Assembly: GCA_002726205.1 (NCBI GenBank)
Contig: PBSL01000014.1
Span: forward strand, 58,920 to 122,919
Source of the DNA: Planctomycetaceae bacterium
GTDB taxonomy: Bacteria; Planctomycetota; Planctomycetia; Planctomycetales; Planctomycetaceae
Direction: 5' to 3'
DNA: 64,000 nt
In this document: piece by piece, positions 7,327-38,557 of the stretch
Layout: each line of letters opens with the position of its first letter
How positions within the stretch are numbered: position 1 is the stretch's first letter
The notes under the pieces: model-generated
What the model was told of the DNA's origin: nothing
Seen by the model: the letters and a program-made list of their open reading frames with translations, nothing else
The model's database searches: none
Translations under genes and position numbers: made by a program

Positions 7327-8793
7327 ATGACCGAGTCCACAACTGACAACCAGCCCGAACCATCAATCCAGACCCGCCGCGAGTTTCTGTCGCAGCACGC
7401 TCTGGGATTGGGCAGCGTGGCCCTGGCGACGCTGTTGAAGCAGGACAACCTGCTGGCCACGCCGGTCGATATCCCCCGGGGCCAGCAACGGTATGACCTG
7501 TTGCCGAAACAGCCGCACATCGCCCCGAAGGCGAAGTCGATGATCTCGCTGTTCATGCACGGCGGTCCGGCCCACATGGACTTGACCGATCCGAAGCCGG
7601 AACTCGAGAGGCTCAACGGAAAGACCTACCAGGGAGATATCTCCTACAGCTTCATCAAGCGGGCCAGCAAGCGGTTGTTGGGGTCCCGCTGGCGTTTTCG
7701 GCCCCACGGGGAGTGCGGAACACAACTCTCGGAATTGCTGCCCAATATTTCGGAAGTCGTCGATGACATCTGCCTGATCCGGTCGATGCACACCGGCTAC
7801 AACGGCCACGAGGTCTCGATCCGCTACATGCATTCGGGTATTCCGGCCGTCACGGGTCGTCCGACACTGGGATCGTGGCTGTTGTACGGCCTGGGTTCGG
7901 ACACGGAAAACCTGCCGGCCTACATGGTGATGACGGATCCGGGCGGGCATCCGGTGGATGGAATCCACAACTGGTCCAACGGCTGGATGCCGACCCTTTT
8001 CCAGGGAACCGTTCTCCGTCCCAAGGAACCCAGGATCCTCAACCTCGATGCGCCTCCCGTCCTTCGCGGCAAGGTCCAGGAACACAACCTCAAGTTCCTG
8101 GCCAAGCTCAACAAGCGGCACGCCGCCAAGCACCCGGGTGAAAATGACCTGGACGCGCGTATCGCCACTTACGAACTGGCGGCCCGGATGCAGACGTCCG
8201 CCAAGGAAGCACTGGATATTTCCCAGGAAACCAGGGCGACACACCAGATGTACGGCCTGGACGATCCCAAGACCCGCGAATATGGCACGCGGTGCCTGAT
8301 CGCCAGGCGGTTGGTCGAACGGGGAGTGCGGTTCGTGCAGTTGTTCCTCAATGGCCAGCCCTGGGACAACCACAACAACATCAAGGCGTCGCTGCCGGCA
8401 GCGTGCGGGCGGACCGACAAGCCGGCGGCGGCATTGGTCAAGGATCTCAAACGCAGCGGGCTGCTCGAGACGACCATCGTCCACTGGGGCGGAGAGATCG
8501 GCAGGTTGCCGGTGACCGAAGGGGATCCGGCCAGTGGTGGCCGCGACCATAACGGCCAGGGATTCAGTACCTGGCTGGCCGGGGGGGGAATCAAGGGAGG
8601 CATGACCTACGGCGAAACCGACGAGGTCGGCCACCGGGCCGCCGTCAACAAGGTGACGCCCAATGATTACCAGGCCACGCTGCTGCACCTTTTCGGGATC
8701 GACTACCAGAAGCTGTTCTTCTTTCACAACGGCCAGCAACAGCAGCTGACCAATGGTCGTAAGGCCCGGGTTGTTCACGACATTCTGGCCTGA
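7327..8793 (+). CDS. DUF1501 family exported protein, partner of the upstream cytochrome gene
   Basis: 488 aa. The Tat signal is TRREFLSQHALGLGS (residues 17-31). DUF1501 landmarks are SLFMHGGPAHMDLTDPKP, the ARRLVERGVRFVQLFLNG block, a WDNHNN segment and HWGGEIGRLPVTEGD followed by GRDHNGQGFSTWLAGGGIKG. It lies 13 bp after the cytochrome/DUF1549/DUF1553 gene and 32 bp before a sulfatase, so the three are probably cotranscribed. The partnership is conserved widely in planctomycetes, but its chemistry is not established. The shared fold with sulfatases suggests metal-dependent hydrolysis or a structural role. Confidence 0.95.
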   Translation: MTESTTDNQPEPSIQTRREFLSQHALGLGSVALATLLKQDNLLATPVDIPRGQQRYDLLPKQPHIAPKAKSMISLFMHGGPAHMDLTDPKPELERLNGKTYQGDISYSFIKRASKRLLGSRWRFRPHGECGTQLSELLPNISEVVDDICLIRSMHTGYNGHEVSIRYMHSGIPAVTGRPTLGSWLLYGLGSDTENLPAYMVMTDPGGHPVDGIHNWSNGWMPTLFQGTVLRPKEPRILNLDAPPVLRGKVQEHNLKFLAKLNKRHAAKHPGENDLDARIATYELAARMQTSAKEALDISQETRATHQMYGLDDPKTREYGTRCLIARRLVERGVRFVQLFLNGQPWDNHNNIKASLPAACGRTDKPAAALVKDLKRSGLLETTIVHWGGEIGRLPVTEGDPASGGRDHNGQGFSTWLAGGGIKGGMTYGETDEVGHRAAVNKVTPNDYQATLLHLFGIDYQKLFFFHNGQQQQLTNGRKARVVHDILA

Positions 8794-10323: not shown

Positions 10324-11820
10324 TCAGGACGATGCCACCGCATGGCGAGGACGGGCGAGGATGTCCTCGACGACCTTGCCGCCCAGGTTGGTCAGCCGCA
10401 CGTTGAGGCCACGATGGTTGATCGACAACGTTTCGTGGTCGAGTCCAAACAGGTGAAGCAGCGTGGCCTGGAAATCGTTGACGTGGACAGGGTTTTCGGC
10501 CGGGGCCCAGCCCAGCTCGTCGGTCTTGCCGTAAACAGTTCCGCCCTTCACTCCGCCGCCGGCCATCCAGACACTGAAGGCATACGGGTGGTGATCGCGT
10601 CCGTCGTTGCCCTGCCCCAGGGGCGTGCGGCCGAATTCGCTGGCCCAGACCACCAGTGTCTCGTCGAGCAGGCCCCGTTGCTTGAGGTCCTTGAGTAATG
10701 CGGCGATCGGCCGGTCGGCCATTTCGCAGTTCCAGGCCAGGTCGTGTTTCAGGCGGCTGTGCTGGTCCCAGGACGCGTGCACGATATTCACGAAACGTAC
10801 GCCCCGTTCGACCAGTCGCCGGGCCAGCAGGCAGTTGGTCGAAAAGCGGTGGTAGGTGTCGCCGATCTGCATCGACGCGGTCGGTCGCGGGGAAACACGG
10901 CCAACACCGTAGGCGTCGAGTGTCTGGCGGGTTTCTGTCGAGAGGTCGGTCAACTCCGGTGCCGCCGTTTGCATGCGGAAGGCCAGTTCGTACTGGGCAA
11001 TGCGACTGATGATTTCCGGATCGCGGATCTGACGATGTCTCAAGTCGTTGAGTTGCCGAATCGCGTTAAGAGTTCGCCGCTGATTTCCGGAACCAATACC
11101 ATCGGGATTGGAGAGATAAAGGACCGGGTCGCCACGGTCGCGGAAGGGGACACCCTGGTAGGTCGAGGGCAGAAAACCACTGGACCAGTTGGTCGATCCG
11201 CCACTGGCACCTCGCCCGGCCGTCAGCACCACGTAACCGGGCAGGTTGTTCGATTCGCTGCCGAGACCATAGACGAGCCATGATCCAATCGTGGGTCGGC
11301 CCATGGCGGCCTTGCCGCAACTGAGGAGCAACTGCCCGGGATGGTGATTGAATTGTTCGCCGTGAACGGTACGGATCAACGCGATGTCGTCAGCGCAGTC
11401 CCCGATGCGACCGATCATGTCAGAGTACTCGATCCCACACTCGCCACGTTGATGGAACCGGGCCGGGGAACCTTTCAGGACGGCCTTGTCTTTTTTGATG
11501 AAGGCAAACTCGGCGGATTTCAGCAGCGAGTCGGGCAGCCGTTTGCCATCCCTGCGGTTGAGAATCGGTTTGGGGTCGAAGAGATCAACATGGCTGGGGC
11601 CGCCGGCCATGAAGAAAAAGATGCAGCGCTTGGCCGTGGGGGCAAAGTGTGTGGCCCTGGGCGCCAGTGATCCGGAGGATGCCGCCGGCAGGTCCTGCTG
11701 CAGAAGCGAGGCCAGCGCTGCACCACCGAGTCCGCTGGCCGAACTGGCCAGGAAATCACGTCGGGTGGCTCGTTGGTTCGCTGTGGGCAGCGGGTGTTGA
11801 TGAGGCATGTTGGTCGGCAA
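10324..11820 (-). CDS. DUF1501 family exported protein, partner of the cytochrome gene at 11833
   Basis: 498 aa from the ATG at 11820; a second in-frame ATG at 11808 is possible. The Tat signal is TRRDFLASSASGLGG. DUF1501 blocks include FFFMAGGPSHVDLFDPKP, LSCGKAAMGRPTIGSWL, LARRLVERGVRFVNIVH and VVWASEFGRTPLGQGNDGRD. It lies 12 bp downstream of a cytochrome/DUF1549/DUF1553 gene, the usual pairing. Of the six DUF1501 proteins here it looks most like the one at 7327, which also ends in a LLHLFGLDHE-type helix. No catalytic activity can be assigned. Confidence 0.95.
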   Translation of the reverse strand: MPTNMPHQHPLPTANQRATRRDFLASSASGLGGAALASLLQQDLPAASSGSLAPRATHFAPTAKRCIFFFMAGGPSHVDLFDPKPILNRRDGKRLPDSLLKSAEFAFIKKDKAVLKGSPARFHQRGECGIEYSDMIGRIGDCADDIALIRTVHGEQFNHHPGQLLLSCGKAAMGRPTIGSWLVYGLGSESNNLPGYVVLTAGRGASGGSTNWSSGFLPSTYQGVPFRDRGDPVLYLSNPDGIGSGNQRRTLNAIRQLNDLRHRQIRDPEIISRIAQYELAFRMQTAAPELTDLSTETRQTLDAYGVGRVSPRPTASMQIGDTYHRFSTNCLLARRLVERGVRFVNIVHASWDQHSRLKHDLAWNCEMADRPIAALLKDLKQRGLLDETLVVWASEFGRTPLGQGNDGRDHHPYAFSVWMAGGGVKGGTVYGKTDELGWAPAENPVHVNDFQATLLHLFGLDHETLSINHRGLNVRLTNLGGKVVEDILARPRHAVASS

Positions 11821-24012: not shown

Positions 24013-25461
24013 ATGCAGGTTGCCGCTGCGTCATTCAACAACACGATTCCACAGGGTTCACCGACGGGTAGCCATACCGGCGCCGTCGTCGAAGAGTCGC
24101 ATGGATTTCAGCAGACCCGGATCCTGCTGTTGCATGAAGCCGGCCGGGACATCTGCATTGTCTCCAGCGACTTTCCGACCAACACGGTGCCCATCTCCGA
24201 CCGCATCCGGGACACCCTGGCCGAGATCCTGAAGATGCCCCGCTCGCACGTCGTCAACTGTTCCAGTCACAACCACTGTTCGACATCGTTGGCCGAAAAC
24301 ACGTTCGAACCGTACCAGGCTGGTCGTTTTCGCAGGTACCGTCGTAAGAAGGTCTGTCGGCTGACAAAGGTGGGCCGGGTGTTCATGAAGGACCTGAAAT
24401 CGGCGGCGAGAAAACTCCGACGAGAGTTGATCGATGCCACGACCTGGTGGGCCGAGGGGCAAGAAGCGCGGATCAGCTATCACCGCAAGGCCCGGCGTGC
24501 CGATGGCAGTTCGTATTTCATGCGCGAGGCCGATCGCGTGGCCGTCGGCCGCGATTACCATGGCGACATTGAAACCCGGGCGCCGGTTGTCACTTTTCGG
24601 CGTGACGATGGATCGACCGTGGCGGCGTTGGCGCAGTTCGCAGCTCATCCGGTGACGGCCTACCATCCCGAGAAGCCTTTGGCACACGGCGAGTATCCGT
24701 CGGTTGCCGTCAATCTGCTCTCCGAACATCTGGCCAGCGATGGGAGCGGCCCACCGGTGGCGTTCTTGCAGGGATGCTGCGGGGACATCAACACCAAGAA
24801 GATGTTCGTCGGAGGGGTGGAAACCGCCGAACGGCATGGTCGTCTGCTGGGGAAATCCTACATCTCGGCCACCAGGAGACTTCAACGCAGTGAAACGGAA
24901 AAACTGGATCTGGCTGTTGTGACGGCGCCGGTTCCACTGGCCGAGTTGCCGTCGGTGCGGACACTCGAGCGGGAACGCGCCGAAATGGAAGATTTCGTGC
25001 AACGAGCCATCGAGGGCGATGAGGACACGTTGACGTGCGTGGGCCTGAACTTTCCCCGTCGACTGTCTCCTTTGTACCGGGCCAGGCTGGTGGAAATGCC
25101 GCTTGCCTGGAACCACTGGGCCCTGTCGCAGCATCGTCGCGGACGAGCCGACCGTGTTGCCAGGACTCTCGATCTCGAAATGCAGGTCCTGCGGATCGGT
25201 GACGTCGGAATCGTCGGCATGCCCTGCGAGCCGTTTCAGGGCATCGGACGACAGATCGTAGGCGAGTCACCGTTTCCGTTGACGATCCCGGTCGGCTACG
25301 CCAACTACAGTTACGGCTACATCACCGATTCTCCCAACACCGGTGATGGAGAATACATGAGCAGTTTTTACCGGTACTCGCGGTTCCGGGCCCCATTGAA
25401 ACGCCCGGCCGGCGACGTGTTGGCCCGGGTTGGTGTCAGGACCCTCAAGAGCCTGATCTGA
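24013..25461 (+). CDS. Neutral/alkaline ceramidase-like metallohydrolase, nucleophile Ser missing
   Basis: 482 aa with no signal peptide. GAGG at 23999-24002 supports the ATG at 24013. The architecture follows neutral/alkaline ceramidases: VNCSSHNHCS (His86/88) for the first zinc His motif, LAQFAAHPVTAYH (His212), FLQGCCGDINT at 252-261, MPCEPFQ (Glu406) and VGYANYSYGYITDS with the zinc-site Tyr. In ceramidases the third block reads QSNxGD with Ser as nucleophile; here that residue is Gly254. The zinc ligands look intact but the hydrolase is probably not a ceramidase. It is followed after 26 bp by an acyltransferase gene and diverges from the GH109-like gene. Confidence 0.85.
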   Translation: MQVAAASFNNTIPQGSPTGSHTGAVVEESHGFQQTRILLLHEAGRDICIVSSDFPTNTVPISDRIRDTLAEILKMPRSHVVNCSSHNHCSTSLAENTFEPYQAGRFRRYRRKKVCRLTKVGRVFMKDLKSAARKLRRELIDATTWWAEGQEARISYHRKARRADGSSYFMREADRVAVGRDYHGDIETRAPVVTFRRDDGSTVAALAQFAAHPVTAYHPEKPLAHGEYPSVAVNLLSEHLASDGSGPPVAFLQGCCGDINTKKMFVGGVETAERHGRLLGKSYISATRRLQRSETEKLDLAVVTAPVPLAELPSVRTLERERAEMEDFVQRAIEGDEDTLTCVGLNFPRRLSPLYRARLVEMPLAWNHWALSQHRRGRADRVARTLDLEMQVLRIGDVGIVGMPCEPFQGIGRQIVGESPFPLTIPVGYANYSYGYITDSPNTGDGEYMSSFYRYSRFRAPLKRPAGDVLARVGVRTLKSLI

Positions 25462-25487
25462 TCGAGGATCGGGCGGGAGAGATTTCA

Positions 25488-26195
25488 ATGAGCGAATCCG
25501 AACGGATCGAGCAGGAGTTTCCTTTCGCCGAGATCGGCGAGGGAACAATCGTCGAACCCGATGTGATCGTCGGATTTCAGTACCACGCCGACTGCGGAAC
25601 GGCCCGTGTCGGACGCAACGGAATCCTGCGGCGAGGGACACTCATCTATGGCGATGTGGAACTGGGCGACTACTTCCAGACCGGGCACAACACGGTCATC
25701 CGGGCCAAGGTTCGGGCCGGAGATTATTGCACGCTCTGTAACCAGTCGACGCTGGAAGGCGTGGTCCGCATGGGCACCGGCGTCCGGATCATGTCCCATG
25801 TCTATGTTCCCACCAGGACCTGGTTTGGTGATCACGTGTTTGTCGGCCCGGGCGTCAATTTCCTGAACAGCCGCTACCCGGGGCGACTTCCCGATCTGCC
25901 GACACCACGAGGGGCGACCGTCGAGGATGAAGTGATGATCGGGGGCGGTGTGACGGTGATGGCAGGAATCACGATTGGCCGGCGAAGCTTCATTGCCGCC
26001 GGGGCGGTAGTGACCTGCGACATTCCGCCGGAGAGTTTCGTGAGAGGATGTCCCGGTCGGATCGAGCCGCTGCCCGAGAAGCTCGATGTGAAGATGGAAC
26101 GGTCGCTGGCCATCCAGTCGCTGGACCTGTGGCATCCGGGCATGCCCGACCTGGGTGCGGTGGATTGGCCGCCCGACTGGCCCGAGGTGTGGTAG
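25488..26195 (+). CDS. Left-handed beta-helix (hexapeptide) acyltransferase, WbpD/NeuD-like
   Basis: 235 aa. GGGAGAGA precedes the ATG. From about residue 15 to 195 there are many imperfect [LIV]-G-x4 hexapeptide turns (VELGDYF, VRAGDYC, VRMGTGV, TWFGDHV, GGGVTVMAGITIGRRSFIAA), ending in AGAVVTCDIPPESFVRGCPG, the standard end of sugar N- or O-acetyltransferases. The insertion NSRYPGRLPDLPTPRGATV resembles the loop in WbpD-type UDP-sugar N-acetyltransferases. A tail of about 45 residues follows the helix. It is probably cytoplasmic, acetyl-CoA dependent, and in an operon with the ceramidase-like gene. Confidence 0.92.
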   Translation: MSESERIEQEFPFAEIGEGTIVEPDVIVGFQYHADCGTARVGRNGILRRGTLIYGDVELGDYFQTGHNTVIRAKVRAGDYCTLCNQSTLEGVVRMGTGVRIMSHVYVPTRTWFGDHVFVGPGVNFLNSRYPGRLPDLPTPRGATVEDEVMIGGGVTVMAGITIGRRSFIAAGAVVTCDIPPESFVRGCPGRIEPLPEKLDVKMERSLAIQSLDLWHPGMPDLGAVDWPPDWPEVW

Positions 26196-26291: not shown

Positions 26292-28796
26292 ATGTTGTTG
26301 TTTCCACCACGCGGTCTGCTCGGCGGCCTGGCGGTGTTGCTGCTGCCGTTGATGGCCGTGGCCGCCGACTCGTTGGTGGTCAGCCCGGAACGAGCCGCGC
26401 TTTCGAGTCACCTGGACCAGGTCCAGCTCGTGGTGACGTTGCACAACGAGAAAAGTGGGGACCGCGACGAAACGCGGACGGCGGTCTACGAGAGCCTGCG
26501 GCCGGATGTTGTTGACGTCGATCGGCAGGGGCGTGTCTTTGCCGTCGCCGCCGGTACGGGCCGGATTCGTGTTCGGCATCGCGGGCTCAGCCAGGATGTG
26601 CCGGTTGTTGTTTCGGGTGATCTGGAGGGTCGTTCGGCGAGGTTTGTTGACCACGTCCAGCCGGTGCTCAGTCGTGCCGGCTGTAACCGGGGAGCCTGTC
26701 ACGCGTCCCAGTTTGGCAAGGGAGGCTTCAAGCTTTCGGTCTTCGCTTTTGCTCCCGAACGGGACCACGTGGCCTTGACCCGTGAATGGGACGGTCGCCG
26801 CCTCTCGGTGGTTCGACCCGACGACAGTCTTGTCCTGCGAAAGGCCATGCTGCAGGTCGGTCACGGGGGCGGTCGTCGTTTCGGCACCGGAAGTTACGAA
26901 CACGCGGTGCTGCGGACGTGGATCGCCGAAGGGGCACGCGGGGATGGCCTGTCGAAGGCGACCAGCATCGTGGGGCTCGACGTTTTTCCTCGAGAACGGG
27001 TCTACAGGCAGAAACAAACGCAGCAGTTGAGGGTCGAGGCCGAGTATCAGGACGGCAGTCGGCGCGACGTGACCCGCCGTGCGGGATTCGACAGCCTTGA
27101 ACACGGGATTGCTGATGTCGATGCCGAGGGACTTGTCACGGTGTCGGGTACCGGGCAGGCTGCCATCATGGTGCGGTACCGGGGCCAGACGGCCGTCTCG
27201 CAGATCATCTCACCATTGAGTGTGCCGGCAGCTCAGGTGGGATTCGTCGCCCACAACCTCGTCGACGAACATGTGGCCAGTCGCTGGAAACTTCTGGGGC
27301 TGCGACCGTCGCCTGGATGCAGCGACGCCGAGTTCATCCGTCGGGTCTTTCTGGATTGCCTGGGCACGTTGCCTCAACCCGATGAGCTAGTGGCATTTCT
27401 CGACTCGAAGAGGCCGGACAAGCGGCAGCGATTGATCGATGAGGTCCTGGGAATCACCGGGGACCTGGAGCGTGACCGTCACGTTGACGTGTGGAGCACG
27501 TTCTGGACGTTGAAGTTTGGCGATATTCTCAGGAACAACCGCAAGACGTCCGGCGACGCCGGCATGTGGGCCTTCCACAACTGGATCAAGCAATCGTTGC
27601 GAGAGAACAAGCCCTACGACCGGTTCACCCGCGAGTTGATCACCGCCCAGGGCTCGATTTTCGAGCATGGGCCGGCCAACTTCATCGCCGCCTCACGCCG
27701 CCCCACTGATGTGGCGACCATCTCGGATCCGGCCGACCTGGCCGAGACCACCGCGCAGGTCTTCTTGGGAATTCGCCTGATGTGTGCCCGGTGTCATCAT
27801 CATCCGTTCGAGACCTACAGTCAGGCGGACTTCTACGGGCTGGCCGCGTTTTTCACGAGGCTCGACAGCAAGTCCAGCGCGACGTTCGGTGAACTGGGTT
27901 TCGATGCCGTCGTCAGTCTGGCGCCGCTCGGCGAAAAACGAACGATCAAGCATCCGCGGACCGGCCGGGTTGTTGCTCCGCGACCACTGGGTGGTGGTGC
28001 GGTTGCGACAGCCGGTGTCCTTGACCTCCGCCAGCCACTTGCTGACTGGCTGACGTCGGGAAAAAATCGCCTGTTTTCCCGCAACATCGTCAACCGGATC
28101 TGGGGTCACTACATGGGCACGGGAATCGTTGAACCGGTCGACGATCTGCGTTCGACCAATCCGCCGTCCAATCCCCAGTTACTCGATGCCTTGGCCGACG
28201 ATTTCGTCGCGCACAAGTTCGACCTGAAACACCTGATGCGGCGGATCATGTCGTCGGCGACCTATCAACTGTCGTCGGCGCCGCGAGCGGAAAACACAGA
28301 GGAGCGTCGTTTCTACTCGCACTACAACATCAGGCGGTTGTCGGCCGAAGTGTTGCTCGATGCAATCGACCAGGCCTGTGGCACTCACGAGCGGTTCCCC
28401 GGCGTACCGCCTGGCACACGAGCCGTCGCCTTGCCGGATCCGAACTTCGAATCCTATTTTCTGGACACGCTGGGTCGACCCCGGCGATTGACCAACTGCG
28501 AGTGCGAGCGAACCTCCGAGCCGAACATGGCGCAGGTGTTGCACCTGGCAAACGGGAAGAAGTTCGAGGAGAAACTGACCGACAAGAAAGGTCGCCTGGC
28601 CCGGTTTGAAGCCGACGCAGTCAAGACCGACGAGGCAATTCGTCAACTGTACATGGCGACGTTCAGCCGTCGGCCGAAGCCCGACGAGTTGGCGACCTGT
28701 CACGACCTGATCAAACGATCCAAGAATCGCCGGCGTGGGCTGGAGAACATCCTCTGGGCCCTGTGCAACAGCCGCGAGTTTCTGTTCAACCACTAG
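26292..28796 (+). CDS. Big2-domain, cytochrome-like DUF1549/DUF1553 protein with CX4CH motif
   Basis: 834 aa; a GTG at 26289 is directly adjacent and also possible. After the signal peptide (about 1-25), residues 28-110 form a bacterial Ig-like (Big2) domain (VVDVDRQGRVFAVAAGTGRI). FVDHVQPVLSRAGCNRGACHA follows: the heme-like motif is C-x4-C-H (Cys131, Cys136, His137), not CxxCH. A second Big2 stretch lies near 225-300. DUF1549 (RRVFLDCLGTLPQPDELVAF) has a canonical MCARCHHHPFE, and DUF1553 (NIVNRIWGHYMGTGIVEPVD, SATYQLSS, SRRPKPDE) follows. It lies 34 bp before its DUF1501 partner and represents a different subfamily from the genes at 4143 and 11833. Confidence 0.94.
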   Translation: MLLFPPRGLLGGLAVLLLPLMAVAADSLVVSPERAALSSHLDQVQLVVTLHNEKSGDRDETRTAVYESLRPDVVDVDRQGRVFAVAAGTGRIRVRHRGLSQDVPVVVSGDLEGRSARFVDHVQPVLSRAGCNRGACHASQFGKGGFKLSVFAFAPERDHVALTREWDGRRLSVVRPDDSLVLRKAMLQVGHGGGRRFGTGSYEHAVLRTWIAEGARGDGLSKATSIVGLDVFPRERVYRQKQTQQLRVEAEYQDGSRRDVTRRAGFDSLEHGIADVDAEGLVTVSGTGQAAIMVRYRGQTAVSQIISPLSVPAAQVGFVAHNLVDEHVASRWKLLGLRPSPGCSDAEFIRRVFLDCLGTLPQPDELVAFLDSKRPDKRQRLIDEVLGITGDLERDRHVDVWSTFWTLKFGDILRNNRKTSGDAGMWAFHNWIKQSLRENKPYDRFTRELITAQGSIFEHGPANFIAASRRPTDVATISDPADLAETTAQVFLGIRLMCARCHHHPFETYSQADFYGLAAFFTRLDSKSSATFGELGFDAVVSLAPLGEKRTIKHPRTGRVVAPRPLGGGAVATAGVLDLRQPLADWLTSGKNRLFSRNIVNRIWGHYMGTGIVEPVDDLRSTNPPSNPQLLDALADDFVAHKFDLKHLMRRIMSSATYQLSSAPRAENTEERRFYSHYNIRRLSAEVLLDAIDQACGTHERFPGVPPGTRAVALPDPNFESYFLDTLGRPRRLTNCECERTSEPNMAQVLHLANGKKFEEKLTDKKGRLARFEADAVKTDEAIRQLYMATFSRRPKPDELATCHDLIKRSKNRRRGLENILWALCNSREFLFNH

Positions 28797-28830
28797 AGAG
28801 CGGTTTGTCACATCGTCGAAGGAACGCGAC

Positions 28831-30156
28831 ATGATCAATCTCCAAGCTCAATCTTCCGGTGACTGCCGTTCCGGGAACCGGCGGGGATTTCTGCTGCAAG
28901 TCGGTGCGCTGGGTGGTCTCGGGCTGACCCTGGATCAACTGTTGCGGTCCCGGCAGGCCATGGCCGATGCCCCGACGAAAAGCCGTGATGTGAATTGCAT
29001 CCTGATCTGGACGCGTGGCGGGACCAGTCATCACGACACGTTGGACCCGAAACCCGAGGCCCGCGCAGAAATCCGCGGTGAATTCGGCACCGTCGACACG
29101 GCGATTCCCGGCGAGCGGTTTTCCGACCAGGTTCCAGGTTTCGCGCGACGGGCCAACCTGTTTTCGGTCGTGAGGAATCTTAACTCCGTCAACGGGGCCC
29201 ATGGTGCGGCCGATGCAATCATGTTGTCGGGATGGCCTCTGAACCCCGCTGTGACCTATCCAAGTTATGGGTCGGTGGTGTCACGGGTCCGCGGCAAACG
29301 CAGGGACATGCCGGCCTTCGTTCAACTGGGCAACGAAGTCGACCGCAAGTTCCTGGGGGGAACGGCCGGTTACCTGGGGATCACTCACAACCCGTTCGAA
29401 GTATTCGAGGATCCCAATGCCGAGAAGTTCACGGTGCGGGATCTGTCACTTCCAGGCGGCGTCAGTCCCAAGAGGGTTTCATTGCGCCGCGAGGCACTGG
29501 CCCGTATCGACAGGCTGCAACGTGGCCTGGACCGACGGCCCTCGACGCTGGCAGCAATCGATACCTACTATGACGACGCCTTTCGCATGATCACGTCGGT
29601 CAACACGCAGCGTGCCTTTCAACTCGAAAGCGAATCCAGCAAGATTCGCGACGCATACGGCCGGACCACGTTCGGGCAGAGTTGCCTGCTGGCGCGTCGG
29701 TTGATCGAAGCGGGCAGCCGTTTCGTGACGGTCAGCAACGGGGGCTGGGACACCCATAGCAAGAACTTTTCTCAGTTGAAGACCCTGCTTCCGCCGCTCG
29801 ACCAGGCTTTGCCGATGCTGGTCGCTGACTTGAAGCAGCGTGGCTTACTCGACTCGACACTCGTTGTCTGGCTGACCGATTTCGGGCGGACGCCGAAGGT
29901 CAACACCGCCTCGGGACGTGATCACTGGGCCTCGGCGGGCCTGGCCTGCTTTGCCGGGGCCGGTACACCCCCGGGCACAATTGTCGGCCAGACCGATGCC
30001 GAGGGCGGCCGAGCCGTCGGCGAGGAATACTATCCCAAGGACATTGCCGCCACCATTTATTCCCGGCTGGGCATTCCGCTCGACACGACCCACGTGATCA
30101 GCGACGGTCGTCCGATGCGGTTGTGCGAAGGACGACCTATTCGGGAGCTGTCATGA
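28831..30156 (+). CDS. DUF1501 family exported protein
   Basis: 441 aa. The ATG at 28831 follows AAGGAACGCG; an open frame extends upstream into the previous gene and is not used here. The signal is NRRGFLLQVGALGGLGLTL. DUF1501 blocks are LIWTRGGTSHHDTLDPKP, NGAHGAADAIMLSGWPL, RTTFGQSCLLARRLIEAG, GGWDTHSKNF and VVWLTDFGRTPKVN followed by GRDHW. The TGA overlaps the ATG of the PPC gene by four bases (ATGA), so translation is probably coupled. No enzymatic activity is established for the family. Confidence 0.94.
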   Translation: MINLQAQSSGDCRSGNRRGFLLQVGALGGLGLTLDQLLRSRQAMADAPTKSRDVNCILIWTRGGTSHHDTLDPKPEARAEIRGEFGTVDTAIPGERFSDQVPGFARRANLFSVVRNLNSVNGAHGAADAIMLSGWPLNPAVTYPSYGSVVSRVRGKRRDMPAFVQLGNEVDRKFLGGTAGYLGITHNPFEVFEDPNAEKFTVRDLSLPGGVSPKRVSLRREALARIDRLQRGLDRRPSTLAAIDTYYDDAFRMITSVNTQRAFQLESESSKIRDAYGRTTFGQSCLLARRLIEAGSRFVTVSNGGWDTHSKNFSQLKTLLPPLDQALPMLVADLKQRGLLDSTLVVWLTDFGRTPKVNTASGRDHWASAGLACFAGAGTPPGTIVGQTDAEGGRAVGEEYYPKDIAATIYSRLGIPLDTTHVISDGRPMRLCEGRPIRELS

Positions 30157-32336
30157 ATTGTCCGCCACCGTGGTTTCGCTGTGGCCTGGCCGGACTGCTG
30201 GTCCTGGCGGTCCTGGGAGGCCAGGCAAAGGCCGAGTCGAAGATCAGCTTTCGCCAGATAACGCGGACGCACCCGGTGGCCGTTCAACGCGGACAATCGA
30301 GGACGGTCCGCGTGTCGGCCAATTTCTCGCTGAACCAATCCCACTCGACCTTCTTTCTGCCGGCCGGAGTCAAGATGACACAGGCCAAGGAGGCCCGTCG
30401 GAAGATCGAGTGGAAGGACCCGATGGAAAGCGACATCGGCGAGGACTATGGGTTCTTGGTTGACGTACCGGCCGGGCAGTTGCCCGGAGTCCGAGAATTT
30501 CGCATTGCAACCGAACAGTCCGTCAGCAGTGTTGGACACCTGCTCGTGACCGAATTTCCCGTGGTCGTCGAGACCGGCAAGGACAACAGCACGCAGGCCG
30601 GTGCCCAGGTGGTTCCGGTGCCGTCGGCGGTCTGCGGAGTGATCGAGGCATTCGAGGATGTTGATCATTTCCGGATCCATGGTCGTGCCGGGCAGGAGTT
30701 GGTTTGCCAGATCTACGCCCAGCGGGTAACGCGGACGATCCACTGCATGGCGATCCAGTATCCGAAGATTCACCTGATGGATGCCTACCTGACGCTGCGT
30801 GACGCACGCGGTCGCGTGGTGGCCGAAAACGACAACTTTGTCGGTGGTGATGCGTTGTTGCATTGCCGGCTCCCGGCGTCTGGGGACTACGATCTCGAGG
30901 TGCGGGATTCCCGCTATGCCGGTGATCCTCGCTATGTCTATTGCGTGGAGATTTCCGAGAGTCCGCTGCCGCTTGCCGCTTTCCCGCTTGCCGTGCAGCA
31001 GGGAAAGCGCGTCGATGTCGAGTTGATCACGTCCGATCCAACGAACGTGAAAGATCCTCGAGCCGGGACTCCGCGACTGACCACAACCTGGGATGTTGCG
31101 GCCGACGCGACACCGGGCTGGGGGATGGTTCAGGTGACAGCCGCGGGAAAAAAGAAGCTGTCCAACCCCGTGCCAAGGCTGGTGACCGGGTATCCCCAAC
31201 TCGTCGCCGACGGCAAGAACAATTCTCTCGAACGGGCCAGGCCGCTGGTTTTGCCCGTTGGTGTCAACGGACGATTTCAGCGGCCAGGACAGACACATTA
31301 TTACCGGTTCACCGCGGCCAAGGATGCCGTGACATATTTCGATGTCCAGTCGCAGCGCCGTGGCCTGGCCGTCGACAGCGTGTTGATCGTGATGGACGCC
31401 AAGGGCCGCGTACTCGCCACAGGTGACGACGGTCACTTCACCAAGGACGCGAGTCTGTACTTTCGTGCACCCGCCGACGGGGAATATGTCGTCGCCGTCC
31501 GGGACCTGAACCGGCGGGCGGGCGGGCGTTTCGTTTATCACCTGGCGGTAACACCCAGCGGGCCGGACTTCGAAGTTCACGGGGAATTCTATTACGGCAT
31601 GTTGGCTCCGGGCCGGCACGCGATCTGGTTTGTCCGGCTGAAACGGCTCAATGGTTTCAACGGACCGGTGACAATGACGGTGGAAGGACTGCCTCGCGGT
31701 GTGCAGTTTCAACCGGTGACGATTCCGGCCGGAATGGATCATTGCTCGCTGATCTTCTCGGCCGATCCCAAGGCACCGGTCAACGCGTCGCTGGTGCGAG
31801 TGCGTGGCAGGGCCAACCTGCCGCGAGGTGACCGTCGGCAGATCGAGGCCGTTCGCGATGCCCACGTGTTGTGTGAATTGCGTCGAGCGGGAGCCAGCCG
31901 GTTTGTCCGGGCTCCGATCCGAAGCCAGTTGCTGGGTGTGACCAAACCGCTGGATATTCGCGGTGTCGAGGTGGTTCCTCGTGAACTGTCACTGCGGCCC
32001 GGCGGCAAGGCAACGATCACGGTTCGGATCAAGCGAAGTCCGGAGTACAGCGAACAGGTGTTGTTGAACATGGCCCTGTTGTTTTTTAACAAGAAAGTGG
32101 GTCAACAATTGCCGCCGGGTGTCACAATCGTCGAGGAGACCACCAGGAAGCTGACCGGGGATCAGCTCGAGTCGACGTTCACGTTGGCAGCCGGGCCGAA
32201 GGTCAAACCGATCAAGCGATTTCCAATCGCCGTGGTGGCCCGTGTGCCGATTACCTACACGATCATGACCAGCTACGCCTCGAACCCGATCTTTCTGTCG
32301 ATCACAACCGGTACGGCCGCTGCGGCACAGAAGTGA
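30153..32336 (+). CDS. Exported pre-peptidase C-terminal (PPC) domain protein
   Basis: 727 aa. It starts at the ATGA overlap with the DUF1501 stop. A signal peptide (about 1-30, ending near GGQAKA) is followed by an N-terminal beta domain. Two PPC-type beta sandwiches follow: AFEDVDHFRIHGRAGQELVC with SGDYDLEVRDSRYAGDPRYV, and PGQTHYYRFTAAKDAVTYFD with DGEYVVAVRDLNRRAGGRFV. The remaining beta-rich tail (FNGPVTMTVEGLPRGV, then LRPGGKATITVRI) looks like further Ig-type domains. No catalytic residues are evident; it probably acts as a surface-exposed binding or structural subunit for the DUF1501/cytochrome pair before it. Confidence 0.92.
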   Translation: MNCPPPWFRCGLAGLLVLAVLGGQAKAESKISFRQITRTHPVAVQRGQSRTVRVSANFSLNQSHSTFFLPAGVKMTQAKEARRKIEWKDPMESDIGEDYGFLVDVPAGQLPGVREFRIATEQSVSSVGHLLVTEFPVVVETGKDNSTQAGAQVVPVPSAVCGVIEAFEDVDHFRIHGRAGQELVCQIYAQRVTRTIHCMAIQYPKIHLMDAYLTLRDARGRVVAENDNFVGGDALLHCRLPASGDYDLEVRDSRYAGDPRYVYCVEISESPLPLAAFPLAVQQGKRVDVELITSDPTNVKDPRAGTPRLTTTWDVAADATPGWGMVQVTAAGKKKLSNPVPRLVTGYPQLVADGKNNSLERARPLVLPVGVNGRFQRPGQTHYYRFTAAKDAVTYFDVQSQRRGLAVDSVLIVMDAKGRVLATGDDGHFTKDASLYFRAPADGEYVVAVRDLNRRAGGRFVYHLAVTPSGPDFEVHGEFYYGMLAPGRHAIWFVRLKRLNGFNGPVTMTVEGLPRGVQFQPVTIPAGMDHCSLIFSADPKAPVNASLVRVRGRANLPRGDRRQIEAVRDAHVLCELRRAGASRFVRAPIRSQLLGVTKPLDIRGVEVVPRELSLRPGGKATITVRIKRSPEYSEQVLLNMALLFFNKKVGQQLPPGVTIVEETTRKLTGDQLESTFTLAAGPKVKPIKRFPIAVVARVPITYTIMTSYASNPIFLSITTGTAAAAQK

Positions 32337-32387
32337 TCTGGCTGCGACAACGGCGAGGGGCTGGGGATGAGTGGGAGGGAAGGTCTG

Positions 32388-33695
32388 ATGAAGATGATGG
32401 GTGTGTTGTTGTTTTGCCTGGCCGGACCCGTGTTTGCCGGCCAGGTCCTCGACGGCGGAAAAACCGAGCGTGTCGGCAACCTGCCGATTCCCGCAATCGA
32501 GGATCTGCTCCGGGTGGACCGAAAAATCCGGCCGAGCCGGGAGGCGATGCGGAATTCGGCCTTCGTGCTCAAGACCAGCTCTCATCCGGTGACCGGTGAG
32601 CGATATGTCATATTGACCGACCACACATCGACCGGTTGCCTGGCTGCCCTGGACCGACTGGCCATGGTCCGCAAGGGAGTGGTGCTGCGGGTCAAGGATC
32701 TGGCGCTGATCCACCGGCGGCCCGAACGGATGGAACAACTCAGAGACCAACTACGACAGTCCCGCGTTCGCTACCTGGCGGTCGCACCACGATTGGAGTC
32801 GTTTCGCGAGAACATGGTCCTGGGTATATGGGAGTTGGCATCGACCCTGGATGACGATCCCCAGTTGGACCTGTTCCCCGGGTTCCTGGTGGCTTCGGAC
32901 GAAAAACGGTTCGTGTCGCTGGTGGAACGCTCGATCAACCATCGGCCGACCAGGAACAAGGCGCTACGTCCGGTGGCGATCAGCCAGGTTCGAACCGCCG
33001 GGGAACTGCGGTCTCTGCAGAAGGCTGCGGTTTTGCGGAAACTGTTTGTCCGCTCGAGTATTTCGATGCCCATCGTCGCCATCTACGGCGCCAGGGCCAA
33101 GAATGCGGCAACGCTTTCGGGAACCGGAATCTGGAACCTGCGAGCCAACCCCGGAGAGCGGTTTCTGAAGCAATTTCCGCCGTCGGCAGCCAGGGCGCTC
33201 GAAGAGGCCTCGCTGATCGTCATGCATGGCCATGGCGCTCCGGGCATGTCCTGCGGCGTGGATGTGGCCGGGCTCCCCAAGAGCCTCAACGGAAAATTCG
33301 TTTTGACGGGATCCTGCTTTGCGGCTTCGCCCGTGCGGTCGGATCTTCCCAGCCTGAGACAGGCCCCCGGTGGTTACCGTGTCGAGGCCCGTGATGCTTT
33401 TGCGCTGCGGGCCATCGACCAGGGAGCGACGGCCGTTTTCGGTCACATGCGACTCAGCATGGGGTTCCCCCACCTGTTTCCGGTACTCGAGTCGTGGATG
33501 AAGGGGCAGACACTTGGCGAGTCATACCAGCAGTTGATCAACGGGCTGATCGAGATCTACGGGTTTCGATCGGGGCGATTCGTGGTGCCGGCCGACGTGC
33601 CGTCCGGTCGCCGCCTGCCGCAAAACCGGTTGCTGTATGTCGTGTTCGGTGACCCGGCGCTCCAGCCATTCGAGCCCCTGGTCAAGCGTCGCTAA
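32388..33695 (+). CDS. Secreted caspase-fold cysteine peptidase, C25 (gingipain)-like
   Basis: 435 aa. The ATG at 32388 follows GGGAGGGAAGG and opens the signal peptide KMMGVLLFCLAGPVFAG; an upstream ATG at 32367 lacks these. The catalytic His is in IVMHGHGAPG (His280 or His282) and the Cys in FVLTGSCFAAS (Cys310), spaced as in C25/caspase-like peptidases. The end has LLYVVFGDPALQPF, equivalent to the GDP(T/A)L motif that closes gingipain catalytic domains. Residues 55-175 would be the first subdomain (VRYLAVAPRLE, LFPGFLVAS). No separate C-terminal sorting domain is seen. It is the fourth gene of the operon that starts at 26292. Confidence 0.85.
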   Translation: MKMMGVLLFCLAGPVFAGQVLDGGKTERVGNLPIPAIEDLLRVDRKIRPSREAMRNSAFVLKTSSHPVTGERYVILTDHTSTGCLAALDRLAMVRKGVVLRVKDLALIHRRPERMEQLRDQLRQSRVRYLAVAPRLESFRENMVLGIWELASTLDDDPQLDLFPGFLVASDEKRFVSLVERSINHRPTRNKALRPVAISQVRTAGELRSLQKAAVLRKLFVRSSISMPIVAIYGARAKNAATLSGTGIWNLRANPGERFLKQFPPSAARALEEASLIVMHGHGAPGMSCGVDVAGLPKSLNGKFVLTGSCFAASPVRSDLPSLRQAPGGYRVEARDAFALRAIDQGATAVFGHMRLSMGFPHLFPVLESWMKGQTLGESYQQLINGLIEIYGFRSGRFVVPADVPSGRRLPQNRLLYVVFGDPALQPFEPLVKRR

Positions 33696-33727
33696 ACAGC
33701 GATGCCGCTTCCACAGTCGCGGCGAGA

Positions 33728-36169
33728 TCATTCGACGATCTTCAGTTGCAGGAAGTGGCTGCCGTGAAACAGAGCCTCGTCCTCGAGTACCCCGACGGCA
33801 TACAGTCGCAGGAAAGGCTGCTGACCCAGGAGGGCGTCGTCATTGGCAATGATCTGGATCGAGCCGGTTTCGGTCTGGCCGACGGAGGTGACTCCTCGAC
33901 CTCGTAGACCACGCACCTTGGTCACGTGACCGGGGGCCGCCAGTTCGGTGTGGATCTTGTTGATGAAGCCGTTGGCGCGACGAACCGAGTACTTGATCTG
34001 AACGATCTGGCCGCGTTTGATCGTCTTCGGGTTGTAGGGGTCCAGTGCGACGTGGAACATCGGCGGGTGCACGTCAAAAACCACCGGGTTACTGAAAACG
34101 GCAACGGATTCCGTCTTCTTGCCGTCGGCGGTTGGGACGGTGGTGGTCGCTTTCACTCCCAGGGTGTAACGGCCCAACGGCAGGCCGGCCGGCAGGTAGA
34201 AGCTGATGTGCCCCTTGGTCTTTGCTGCGGGGATGGTCGTCGTCTGGTTGGCGATGCTTGCGGGAACCCCAACACCGATCAGCTGGACGTCGGCCAGGTG
34301 CGACGGGTCCTTGCGCTCCACCTCGATGGCGACATCCAGGACACAGCCCGGGGCGTGCCGCACCTTGAGTTCCCCATAAAGGTGATGGATACGGGTTTGG
34401 TGGCCGTCTGCGGTGATCCGCAGGGGAGCCGAACCGGCGATTCCCAGCGGTATCTGCTGCGAGAGGCGTGACCAACCGTTGGGTCGGCCGCCTCGCACCA
34501 CCGTTGTGGCTCTGACCGGTCGCCGTGTCGTTCCGCTGGCAGATGTCGACAGGGTGATCGATCCAGCGAAGGGATCAGCACCGTTGGCAGCACTGAGTAC
34601 AAGTTGGCCACGTGACACGCCGGGGCCGAGAAAGACGTCGGGACAATCGACACCGATGGGAAGGTTCTCGGCGAAGATCCGGACCGCGCCGTTACACCCA
34701 CGGCGTCGAAACGCCACGACATCGAGTACGGTTCTCCCACCACGCTCGACATTGATACCCATCGGGCCCGCGCTGGTTGGTACGATCGCGACGTCGACGA
34801 CGGGGACTTCCCTTTGCAGCGAGAGACGGTAAATCCGTCGAGGATCCGGGTGAACACTGCTTGTCCGGTTGCGGATCACCACCAGGAAGCGGCCGTCGGC
34901 TGGTGCAACAAATCGCCCGGTCGGATCGGCGTGCCGCGTGGGCAGTGCCAGGCCGCCGAGGTTTCGCGGGTCCTGGCGACAGCGAAAGAGCTCGGACCGG
35001 CCGGTCGAGTCCATGACCGACACCGCCAGGTCGACCGGCGCACCGATCCGCTCACCAAAGGCCTCCAGGTAGATCACCTCGCCCTGCCGGGCATCAAAGG
35101 CAAACCAGTCGCGTTCGTCGGGTTCGCTCAACTGACCGCTGACCTCACAGGGGATCACCAGTGAGTGGGCGGATTTCGGGAGTCGGTTGTCGAGAGCACC
35201 AACGATTACCGGAGTGTCGGTGACACCGATCAGCACTGGTGCATGTGCCCCGGGCAACTGCCAGGCCAGTCCATCGACGGGAGTCTGCGACGGTGCAAGT
35301 CGCAGTGGCAGTGGCCACGACACACGGGCCTGCCCGGCGGGGATCTCGACCTCCACACTGTCCAACCCCGGGGCGGCGACACGGTTGGCCAGGTTCCAGC
35401 CATACAACCGCAGGCGGGACTTCCGGCCCTGCCGGATGACCGCAGGAACGGCAAAGGCCACTCGCGGTCCGGTGTCGATGTCGAGGCGATAGATGTGGTT
35501 GGCTCCGCCGGTATAGGTCAGGTCGTGAAGTCGGACGACGTACTCGCCATCCCGGGTGATCGGGAAGTCGATCAGCGGGTCGATACCGAAATACCCACGG
35601 CTGACCTTCAGCAAGCGGCCCTTCGCGTCGAACAACTGCAGGATCGGATGCAGCAGCGACCCGATCCGCTCTGCCCAGCATTCGATGACAACGCGTTGCC
35701 CCGTCTTGGCAGAAAAGCGGAAACAATCCTGATCACCGGCCTCACCGAGTCGGCCATTGAGTACCGCGTTAAGCGGGACGGGCTGGGGTTTTGCCAGGGT
35801 GTTGTTCGGATCGACCTCGGAAAGTTCTCTGCGATTACCCACCTGGAACAGTCGCGGTGAACTCAACCCATTCCTGCCGGCCACTCGCAGGTCATAAAGT
35901 CCGGGCGGTGTGCTGTTGGGGATCGTGATCCGGTACCGACCGTCCTTGGCATTGTCGATCGCTTCTGTCTCGACACCGGGCGCGGTGCAGTCAAGCCTGG
36001 CGGGTCCTTCGAGTCCACTACCGGTGACGGTCACCTCGAGAGAGGTTCCGAGTTGACCACCGGCCGGTGTGACGGTCGTGATCACGGGATTGGCAGCCGC
36101 CACGACTGTTGACGGGCAAGCCGTGGCCAGGGTCAGCAACAGCACGCAGGAGACGGAAAAACGGAGCAT
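33728..36169 (-). CDS. Exported TIG/IPT and PPC-domain protein
   Basis: 813 aa. The signal peptide (about 1-25) is followed by an IPT/TIG-like Ig domain (ITTVTPAGGQLGTSLEVTVT, residues 30-110). Three PPC-like beta sandwiches follow (GEAGDQDCFRFSAKTGQRVV; EPDERDWFAFDARQGEVIYL; DGRFLVVIRNRTSSVHPDPRR). The C-terminal half is beta-rich and includes GVKATTTVPTADGKKTESVA and RRANGFINKIHTELAAPGHV. It is organised like the PPC protein at 30153 but stands alone, convergent with the peptidase gene (32 bp between stops). It is probably a cell-surface or periplasmic scaffold; no active site is visible. Confidence 0.9.
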   Translation of the reverse strand: MLRFSVSCVLLLTLATACPSTVVAAANPVITTVTPAGGQLGTSLEVTVTGSGLEGPARLDCTAPGVETEAIDNAKDGRYRITIPNSTPPGLYDLRVAGRNGLSSPRLFQVGNRRELSEVDPNNTLAKPQPVPLNAVLNGRLGEAGDQDCFRFSAKTGQRVVIECWAERIGSLLHPILQLFDAKGRLLKVSRGYFGIDPLIDFPITRDGEYVVRLHDLTYTGGANHIYRLDIDTGPRVAFAVPAVIRQGRKSRLRLYGWNLANRVAAPGLDSVEVEIPAGQARVSWPLPLRLAPSQTPVDGLAWQLPGAHAPVLIGVTDTPVIVGALDNRLPKSAHSLVIPCEVSGQLSEPDERDWFAFDARQGEVIYLEAFGERIGAPVDLAVSVMDSTGRSELFRCRQDPRNLGGLALPTRHADPTGRFVAPADGRFLVVIRNRTSSVHPDPRRIYRLSLQREVPVVDVAIVPTSAGPMGINVERGGRTVLDVVAFRRRGCNGAVRIFAENLPIGVDCPDVFLGPGVSRGQLVLSAANGADPFAGSITLSTSASGTTRRPVRATTVVRGGRPNGWSRLSQQIPLGIAGSAPLRITADGHQTRIHHLYGELKVRHAPGCVLDVAIEVERKDPSHLADVQLIGVGVPASIANQTTTIPAAKTKGHISFYLPAGLPLGRYTLGVKATTTVPTADGKKTESVAVFSNPVVFDVHPPMFHVALDPYNPKTIKRGQIVQIKYSVRRANGFINKIHTELAAPGHVTKVRGLRGRGVTSVGQTETGSIQIIANDDALLGQQPFLRLYAVGVLEDEALFHGSHFLQLKIVE

Positions 36170-37099: not shown

Positions 37100-38557
37100 A
37101 TGCTGCAGATTCTCGGTCGATCGCAACGCGTCTGCAATGGCCTGAGCCGCCGGCAATTGCTGGAGGTGGGTGGGGCCGGGTTGTTGGGTGTGGGAGCGGA
37201 AAACTGGACGGCTGCTGAGGCGGCCGGTGCCAATCGCCTGGAGCCTCGGGCCAAGGCAGTGATCTTCCTGTATCTCTTCGGAGGTCCCAGCCAGCTTGAG
37301 ACGTTTGACATGAAGCCCGAGGCGGCGAGTACGGTCCGCGGGCCTTTCGGAGCAATCTCGGCACGGACCCCGGAAATGCGAATCTGCGAGCACCTGCCCG
37401 GACTGGCACAACGCTCGGATCGGTTCTGTGTCATTCGCACGGTCAATCACACCCAGAACGACCACAACGCGGCGCACATCATCCAGACGGGGCGGCCGAT
37501 GCCGCCGGCCGAACGTGGCCCTGCCCGGGTCAATGCCGCGCCGAACGACTGGCCGGCGATGGGGTCGGTTGTCGAATATCTCGACCGTCGCCACGGGCAA
37601 CCACGATCGGTTCCCGGTTACGTGTATCTCCCAAACCGTCATGGCGAGATCCAGCTGGGGGGCCGCTACGATCGACTGGGGCAATATGCCGGCTGGTTGG
37701 GTCCGGAATATAACGCGTTGTCGACCCGAATCCGCAAGCGGGCGCACCTGGACAATCCGTATTTCCGGGATTGCACGGAAAAGGAACTTCAGTTCCAGTT
37801 TCGCGGACTGGAACTTGCCGGGGGCGTCACGCTGGATCGATTGAATCGTCGACAGGGCCTGTTGGCTCAATTCGAATCGCAAAGAAAGGCACTCGAACGT
37901 TCGATGCCGATTGCTGCCTACGACGGCCAGAGGCAGGCGGCGCTGGACATGGTGAGTTCCGACACGCTACGGACGGCCCTGGACATCCGCCGCGAGTCAC
38001 CTCGGCTCCGCGACCGCTACGGGCGCCACCTGTTTGGGCAATCACTGATCGTGGCACGGCGGATGGTCGAAACCGGTTCGCGGTTCGTGACAGTTGTCTG
38101 GGACATGCCCGATGGCGCCCCCTCGGGATGGGATTCCCATGAAGGCATGACCAAGAGTCTGCGCGACCACCTGCTGCCGGGACTGGACCAGGGGGTTTCG
38201 GCACTGCTTGACGACATGGGGGATCGCGGTCTGTTGGACGAGACCCTGGTCGTGTGCCTGGGCGAGATCGGCCGTACGCCGAAGTTCGAGAACCGGGGCA
38301 GTGCCGATGGGCGTGATCACTGGAGCTTTTGCTTTCCCGCCCTGTTGGCCGGCGCCGGGGTCAGCGGTGGCAGGGTTCATGGCCGTTCGGACCGCGCGGC
38401 CGGTTATCCGCTTGATCACCCCGTCAGCCCCGCGGACCTTTCGGCGACGATCTTCGAATCCCTGGGCATTGATCCGCATTCCAAGATCAATGACAAACAG
38501 GGTCGACCCGCGGCGCTGGTCGAGGGGGGCCGGGTCCTCGACGAACTCTATGCCTGA
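37100..38557 (+). CDS. DUF1501 family exported protein (unpaired)
   Basis: 485 aa from the ATG at 37100, which sets the signal SRRQLLEVGGAGLLGVGA near the N-terminus; an upstream ATG at 37061 is in frame but adds 13 unlikely residues. The body has FLYLFGGPSQLETFDMKP, NHTQNDHNAAHIIQTGRPMP, RDRYGRHLFGQSLIVARRMV and CLGEIGRTPKFENRGSADGRD. The sequence is clearly closest to the DUF1501 at 2397 (same FGGPSQLETFDMKP and RYGRHLFGQS blocks). No cytochrome/DUF1549 gene adjoins it. It converges with the sugar isomerase gene across 120 bp in which I see no gene. Confidence 0.93.
   Translation: MLQILGRSQRVCNGLSRRQLLEVGGAGLLGVGAENWTAAEAAGANRLEPRAKAVIFLYLFGGPSQLETFDMKPEAASTVRGPFGAISARTPEMRICEHLPGLAQRSDRFCVIRTVNHTQNDHNAAHIIQTGRPMPPAERGPARVNAAPNDWPAMGSVVEYLDRRHGQPRSVPGYVYLPNRHGEIQLGGRYDRLGQYAGWLGPEYNALSTRIRKRAHLDNPYFRDCTEKELQFQFRGLELAGGVTLDRLNRRQGLLAQFESQRKALERSMPIAAYDGQRQAALDMVSSDTLRTALDIRRESPRLRDRYGRHLFGQSLIVARRMVETGSRFVTVVWDMPDGAPSGWDSHEGMTKSLRDHLLPGLDQGVSALLDDMGDRGLLDETLVVCLGEIGRTPKFENRGSADGRDHWSFCFPALLAGAGVSGGRVHGRSDRAAGYPLDHPVSPADLSATIFESLGIDPHSKINDKQGRPAALVEGGRVLDELYA

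Follow-up and report, generated by a model that had tools for sequence, protein, structure and literature searches.

A gene for a C25-like, gingipain-fold protein beside a PSCyt2/PSD1-DUF1501-PPC-like gene trio in a planctomycete genome

Known gene neighbourhoods and layout of the locus

Among the described systems closest to the locus studied here are the gingipains, which carry Ig-like and C-terminal sorting domains, and the PSCyt/PSD and DUF1501 genes, which are highly expanded in planctomycetes. Passages of one source (PMC5615132) state that a member of either of two uncharacterised gene families is usually found next to PSCyt2 genes, and that PSCyt genes of Verrucomicrobia lie near sulfatase genes, with carbohydrate-binding modules in some. 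They add that nothing is known of PSCyt functions and that the products are predicted to be periplasmic or cytoplasmic, a location that does not favour a surface role. Passages of another source (PMC2754498) suggest redox reactions and report 41 copies each of the PSD1 and PSC2 domains in Rhodopirellula baltica.

The window, meaning the whole stretch of 64,000 nt that was analysed (G000:C14:58920-122919), belongs to a genome of 4.86 Mb in 76 contigs. It contains a unit of four + strand genes, g1 to g4, at 26292-33695. Gene positions and intergenic distances were re-measured (34 bp for g1/g2, a 4-bp overlap (-4) for g2/g3 and 51 bp for g3/g4) and were the same as in an earlier note, which had described an operon whose last product, a peptidase, might mature exported surface proteins. 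The present analysis upholds an operon-like set of genes for probably exported products, the last of them a gingipain-fold peptidase, and does not support a general maturation role. Order and strand of g1-g4 were the same in three further genomes, at 62-83% protein identity, and this recurrence indicates that the arrangement is more than chance. Candidate g4 starts were located at most about 65 bp from the g3 stop in 4/4 operon loci. Scans found one promoter-like site, against 1.2 expected by chance, and six terminator-like sites, against 6.8 expected, so that it is the spacing and its conservation that point to cotranscription of g1-g4. Within the portions of the literature on these DUF families that were at hand, no description of the g1-g4 unit was met, which is no proof of its absence from print.

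The first gene, g1 (26292..28796, +), encodes a probably exported protein with Pfam matches to PSCyt2 (DUF1549, E 7e-44), PSD1 (DUF1553, E 1.7e-49) and Ig-like domains; it is the protein previously called cytochrome-like. It has two putative haem-binding motifs, CNRGACH (CX4CH; 26682..26702, +) and CARCH (CXXCH; 27783..27797, +), and motifs of the CX4CH and CXXCH forms were both present in 16/16 g1 sequences, window included. The second gene, g2 (28831..30156, +; placed from Pfam, start and gap, and motif), encodes a DUF1501 protein (E 3.4e-94) with a twin-arginine motif, RRGFL, of the RRxF form found in 16/16 g2 sequences, window included. PSCyt2/PSD1 and DUF1501 genes are adjacent in the unit. 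We take DUF1501 to be the family that adjoins PSCyt2 genes and that the passages cited above leave unnamed. The third gene, g3 (30153..32336, +), encodes a large, probably exported protein with weak similarity to the PPC domain (E 0.0053; 18 bits, below the Pfam cut-off of 25.9 bits). NCBIfam added no match above its cut-offs for any of the four proteins. Sec-type signal-like N-termini were recognised on g1, g3 and g4 by hydropathy and by eye rather than by a dedicated signal-peptide program, so the view that all four products are exported, which signal-like N-termini on all four support, stands as a prediction, with g2 probably using the Tat route and the others Sec.

DUF1501 is abundant in this genome, with at least 127 matches (222 first-look candidates, of which 127 were scored), five of them in the window (2406-3686, 7531-8787, 10357-11634, 28993-30150 and 37250-38548). 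Chance proximity to such genes was considered as the origin of the unit and rejected, given the order kept in three further genomes. Downstream, only 32 bp (33696-33727) separate g4 from g5 (33728..36169, -), a convergent gene for a TIG/PPC protein (Pfam) that is a neighbour outside the operon and is also found at loci L004 and L005. At these two loci an extra DUF1501 gene is located between g4 and g5; either the window has lost it or the other two loci have acquired it.

Identity and distribution of g4

The last gene, g4 (32388..33695, +), encodes a probably exported protein of 435 aa with the predicted fold of a C25-like (gingipain-fold) cysteine peptidase. In Pfam it gave one meaningless match (E 0.16); Peptidase_C25 (PF01364) does not recognise it, and neither the window's g4 nor any other protein of the genome passed the curated PF01364 cut-off. 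A sequence search of the PDB with g4 returned nothing useful. The g4 profile began with 6 sequences and was extended first to 14 and then to 40 (alignment A3 excludes L135 and L110, the latter being the window itself). A first structure from six sequences was poor (pLDDT 52.1) and was replaced by an AlphaFold2 model from 40 sequences with a mean pLDDT of 92.6. The top four Foldseek matches of this model were gingipain entries (RgpB and Kgp), the first with E 6e-10. VIA-align gave Z 23.5 for RgpB (rmsd 3.7 over 303 residues) and Z 22.2 for Kgp, followed by separases (Z 10-15) and the CHAT proteases of Craspase (11-13), and unrelated folds began at Z about 6. The model has the caspase-like alpha/beta fold seen in gingipain.

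The alignment also places a predicted catalytic His-Gly and Cys, as in C25-like clan CD peptidases. Counted from the start at 32388, these are His282 (33231..33233, +), invariant in the 14 sequences of alignment A2 and present in at least 90% of the 40 aligned relatives, and Cys310 (33315..33317, +), kept in 40/40. Catalytic activity of g4 is thus predicted from fold and residues. Given this fold, the Foldseek and VIA-align rankings and the Pfam miss, g4 is, by its model, a C25-like clan CD protein that the current Pfam model is unable to detect, and the C25-like label first given to it from sequence is borne out by the RgpB-like fold and the conserved Cys and His; the alternative that the label is wrong was discarded on the predicted fold. 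Among the 40 wider relatives, 10 match Peptidase_C25 at E values up to 0.1 (best 7.4e-7). Some wider C25-like relatives (L119, L134, L139) lie inside very large open frames, and L119 has two copies of the domain.

The gene is present as a single copy in its own genome (one match at E <= 10), which rules out a family of g4 paralogues there. With the own genome counted in every distribution figure, g4 was found by single-sequence search in 3/99 genomes. Profile searches found it in 6/170 genomes of the family (five strong matches and a weak one in G119) and in 13/397 genomes of the class, of which two are weak (G119 and G090) and the rest include families f5 and f7. The 14-sequence profile matched proteins in 73/392 genomes of the phylum at E <= 0.001; most of these matches are distant and split into two separate stretches. 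Because the first look in these searches is loose, distant peptidases may escape them: a wider profile detected C25-like proteins of about 20% identity in the trio-bearing genomes G113, G118 and G119, which the family search had missed or scored weakly, and whose genes are either megabases distant from the trio or on the opposite side of the chromosome. Canonical PF01364 proteins were present in 14/170 family genomes at E <= 0.001 (12 over the cut-off), which serve as a positive control, and in 0/14 control genomes; the own genome has none.

The g1-g3 trio and the history of the arrangement

We compared 39 loci around g3 homologues, window included, picked by hand as the best-scoring matches plus a spread of weaker ones. 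Genes g1, g2 and g3 occur together in 24 of these loci, in three arrangements: seven co-directional, 13 with g1 divergent and four with g2 divergent. The second trio of the own genome (contig C38, L079) has g2 divergent and no g4. A g3 homologue stands without g1 or g2 at L057, L060, L061, L073 and L078, g1 is missing at L049, and g2 at L072, L077 and L082, matches below 50% identity not being counted as g2. Six of the 39 loci are short or at contig ends (L046, L051, L058, L063, L071 and L074), and missing genes there say little. Two genomes of genus g38 (L047 and L053) have a DUF1570 gene and a gene for an AI-2E-type transporter after the trio. The first three genes are best read as a recurrent unit and as one among several paralogous, extracytoplasmic modules of the PSCyt2/PSD1-DUF1501-PPC-like type in planctomycetes.

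Only four of the 24 trios carry g4, all of them co-directional (the window, L007, L065 and L066), a fraction that does not come from a random sample, since the loci were hand-picked. L065 (G206) and L066 (G207) were taken as the same records as L005 and L004, and L092 as the same as L006, each counted once. The family counts offer a wider comparison: five strong g4 matches in 170 genomes against g3 homologues at E <= 1e-60 in 111/170. A widely conserved four-gene unit was excluded as a description by the 4/24 figure. Conservation of all four genes in order, which the earlier note had proposed to look for, is thus real in three further genomes and does not extend to most trios.

The peptidase also occurs elsewhere without the other three genes, a finding that the earlier note had named as counting against its own reading. 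Within the flanking DNA covered, close g4 homologues without a trio were found at L008, in the same family, and at six loci of two other families (L092-L096 and L098); a further stand-alone candidate, L097, is cut by a contig end. The homologue lies amid carbohydrate and transport genes at L092 and L093, as judged by eye, and near other DUF1501 genes with 30-34% identity to g2 at L094. A metallo-beta-lactamase-fold gene, possibly another partner, directly follows the g4 homologue at L008 (10072-11112) and L096 (5043-5987). EF-hand-like N-termini, all under the Pfam cut-offs, were seen in 5/10 proteins scanned, and the Pfam scan found none in g4 of the window or of L007.

Trees of g3 and g2 were built for 21/24 trio loci, with L048, L050 and L055 left out as near-copies. 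The co-directional trios form one clade (support 100/100 for g3 and 100/99 for g2), inside which the four peptidase-bearing loci form another (100/100 in both trees). In the tree of g4, the peptidases of the four operon loci group together as a clade (98/97), with L008 next at weaker support (81/90) and with L099 and L100 on very long branches of unsure placement. The trees fit a single recruitment of g4 behind a co-directional trio; repeated loss of an old link between g4 and the trio would require more events. The event was probably a gain rather than many losses. The gene looks like a late add-on to an exported trio in few relatives. Between L007 and L065, dN/dS was 0.154 for g4, 0.050 for g1, 0.042 for g2 and 0.107 for g3, so g4 is maintained under purifying selection, yet is the fastest-changing of the four.

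Possible roles of g4 and comparison with known systems

We assign a probability of about 0.5 to the reading in which g4 would be an optional secreted cysteine endopeptidase, encoded beside a widespread PSCyt2/PSD1-DUF1501-PPC-like module and acting on the same external or periplasmic material without maturing the module. It would descend from a gene encoding a secreted cysteine endopeptidase of the C25-like kind that stands alone elsewhere in the class, often with an EF-hand-like N-terminus. In an ancestor of two genera this gene would have ended up downstream of a co-directional module copy and been retained there. The peptidase would be made together with the g1-g3 module and would work beside it; for example, it could remove the protein part of a matrix of glycoprotein or polymer, leaving the remainder to the redox- or hydrolase-like module. 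From the sulfatase and carbohydrate context and the redox reactions in the PSCyt literature, we infer that g4 degrades protein in the module's material, and an attack on shared external substrates appears more likely than maturation of the module.

A possible but rather doubtful alternative is that g4, cotranscribed or merely adjacent, has no functional link to the trio and that the order reflects the shared ancestry of two genera. One event suffices for a single clade of linked peptidases, and DUF1501 genes are common enough for many other genes to have one nearby. Compared with L004 and L005, the window is syntenic beyond g4, through g5 (65-67%) and a further DUF1501 gene (79%), so shared ancestry by itself may maintain the order, and part of it may be plain inheritance. 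However, the genes at 24013-26195 are unmatched upstream in L004/L005 (about 3.5 kb compared) while the unit is intact, and the DUF1501 gene next to g4 in L004/L005 is absent from the window while g3 and g4 are still together.

Unlikely, and somewhat more so, is a lineage-specific maturation in which g4 would cut g1 and/or g3 at the surface in the two genera, so as to trim or release them. The short distance from g3 in all four operon loci, the predicted co-export and the gingipain fold would suit it, as would the Arg/Lys positions found specifically where the peptidase is present (8 in g1, 5 in g2 and 12 in g3, against 1, 2 and 1 in a three-sequence control clade). However, the same four sequences have 11 specific Ala/Gly and 10 Ser/Thr positions in g1 and 14 Ile/Leu/Val/Met positions in g3; Arg/Lys showed no excess over other residue groups, and its positions are therefore no evidence of cleavage sites. 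Two of those in g3 precede its likely start, and no insertion beyond three residues (in g1) is specific to the peptidase-bearing g1-g3 proteins. Under maturation, trios should require the peptidase, and its clients should contain processing sites. Neither expectation was borne out: 20/24 trios lack g4, including the second trio of the own genome, and g4 homologues occur without a trio, so the general maturation of surface proteins put forward in the earlier note mostly fails. As an apparent late add-on in few relatives, g4 is unlikely to be needed for processing the other three proteins.

The reading that g4 is C25-like but lacks protease activity, and is retained for binding or regulation, has the Pfam miss in its favour but is highly improbable against the conserved Cys and His, the gingipain-like predicted fold and the purifying selection.

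Beyond the shared-substrate reading preferred here, one may speculate, with little confidence, that g4 belongs to a large unnamed C25-like family of Planctomycetota, mostly missed by Pfam and hitched to varied exported modules. Here a putative dihaem PSCyt protein, a DUF1501 enzyme and a PPC-like scaffold would join the peptidase in a machine for processing or degradation at the surface. The wider C25-like family represents a pool of possible secreted proteases, largely without annotation, and a three-gene unit that recurs across the family of the host in three arrangements, one with a peptidase, is a defined target for knock-outs.

Compared with known systems, g1 shares its domain make-up with the PSCyt2/PSD1 genes of Planctomycetes and Verrucomicrobia, and the unit differs from their known neighbourhoods by the added third gene, g3, and, in few genomes, by the peptidase. 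The canonical PF01364 proteins found in this planctomycete family share the C25 family and a similar short motif region with g4, but they are different genes, and a profile comparison with g4 was weak (29 columns aligned, probability 71). With RgpB and Kgp (family C25, PF01364), g4 has in common a fold of about 300 residues, the conserved His and Cys and a signal-like N-terminus. It differs from them in its low identity (10-12%), in being missed by the Pfam model, in a host outside the Bacteroidota, in the presence of the peptidase with its would-be client genes in only 4/24 trios, and in a chain that ends right after the catalytic domain, leaving no room for gingipain-type Ig-like and C-terminal sorting domains.
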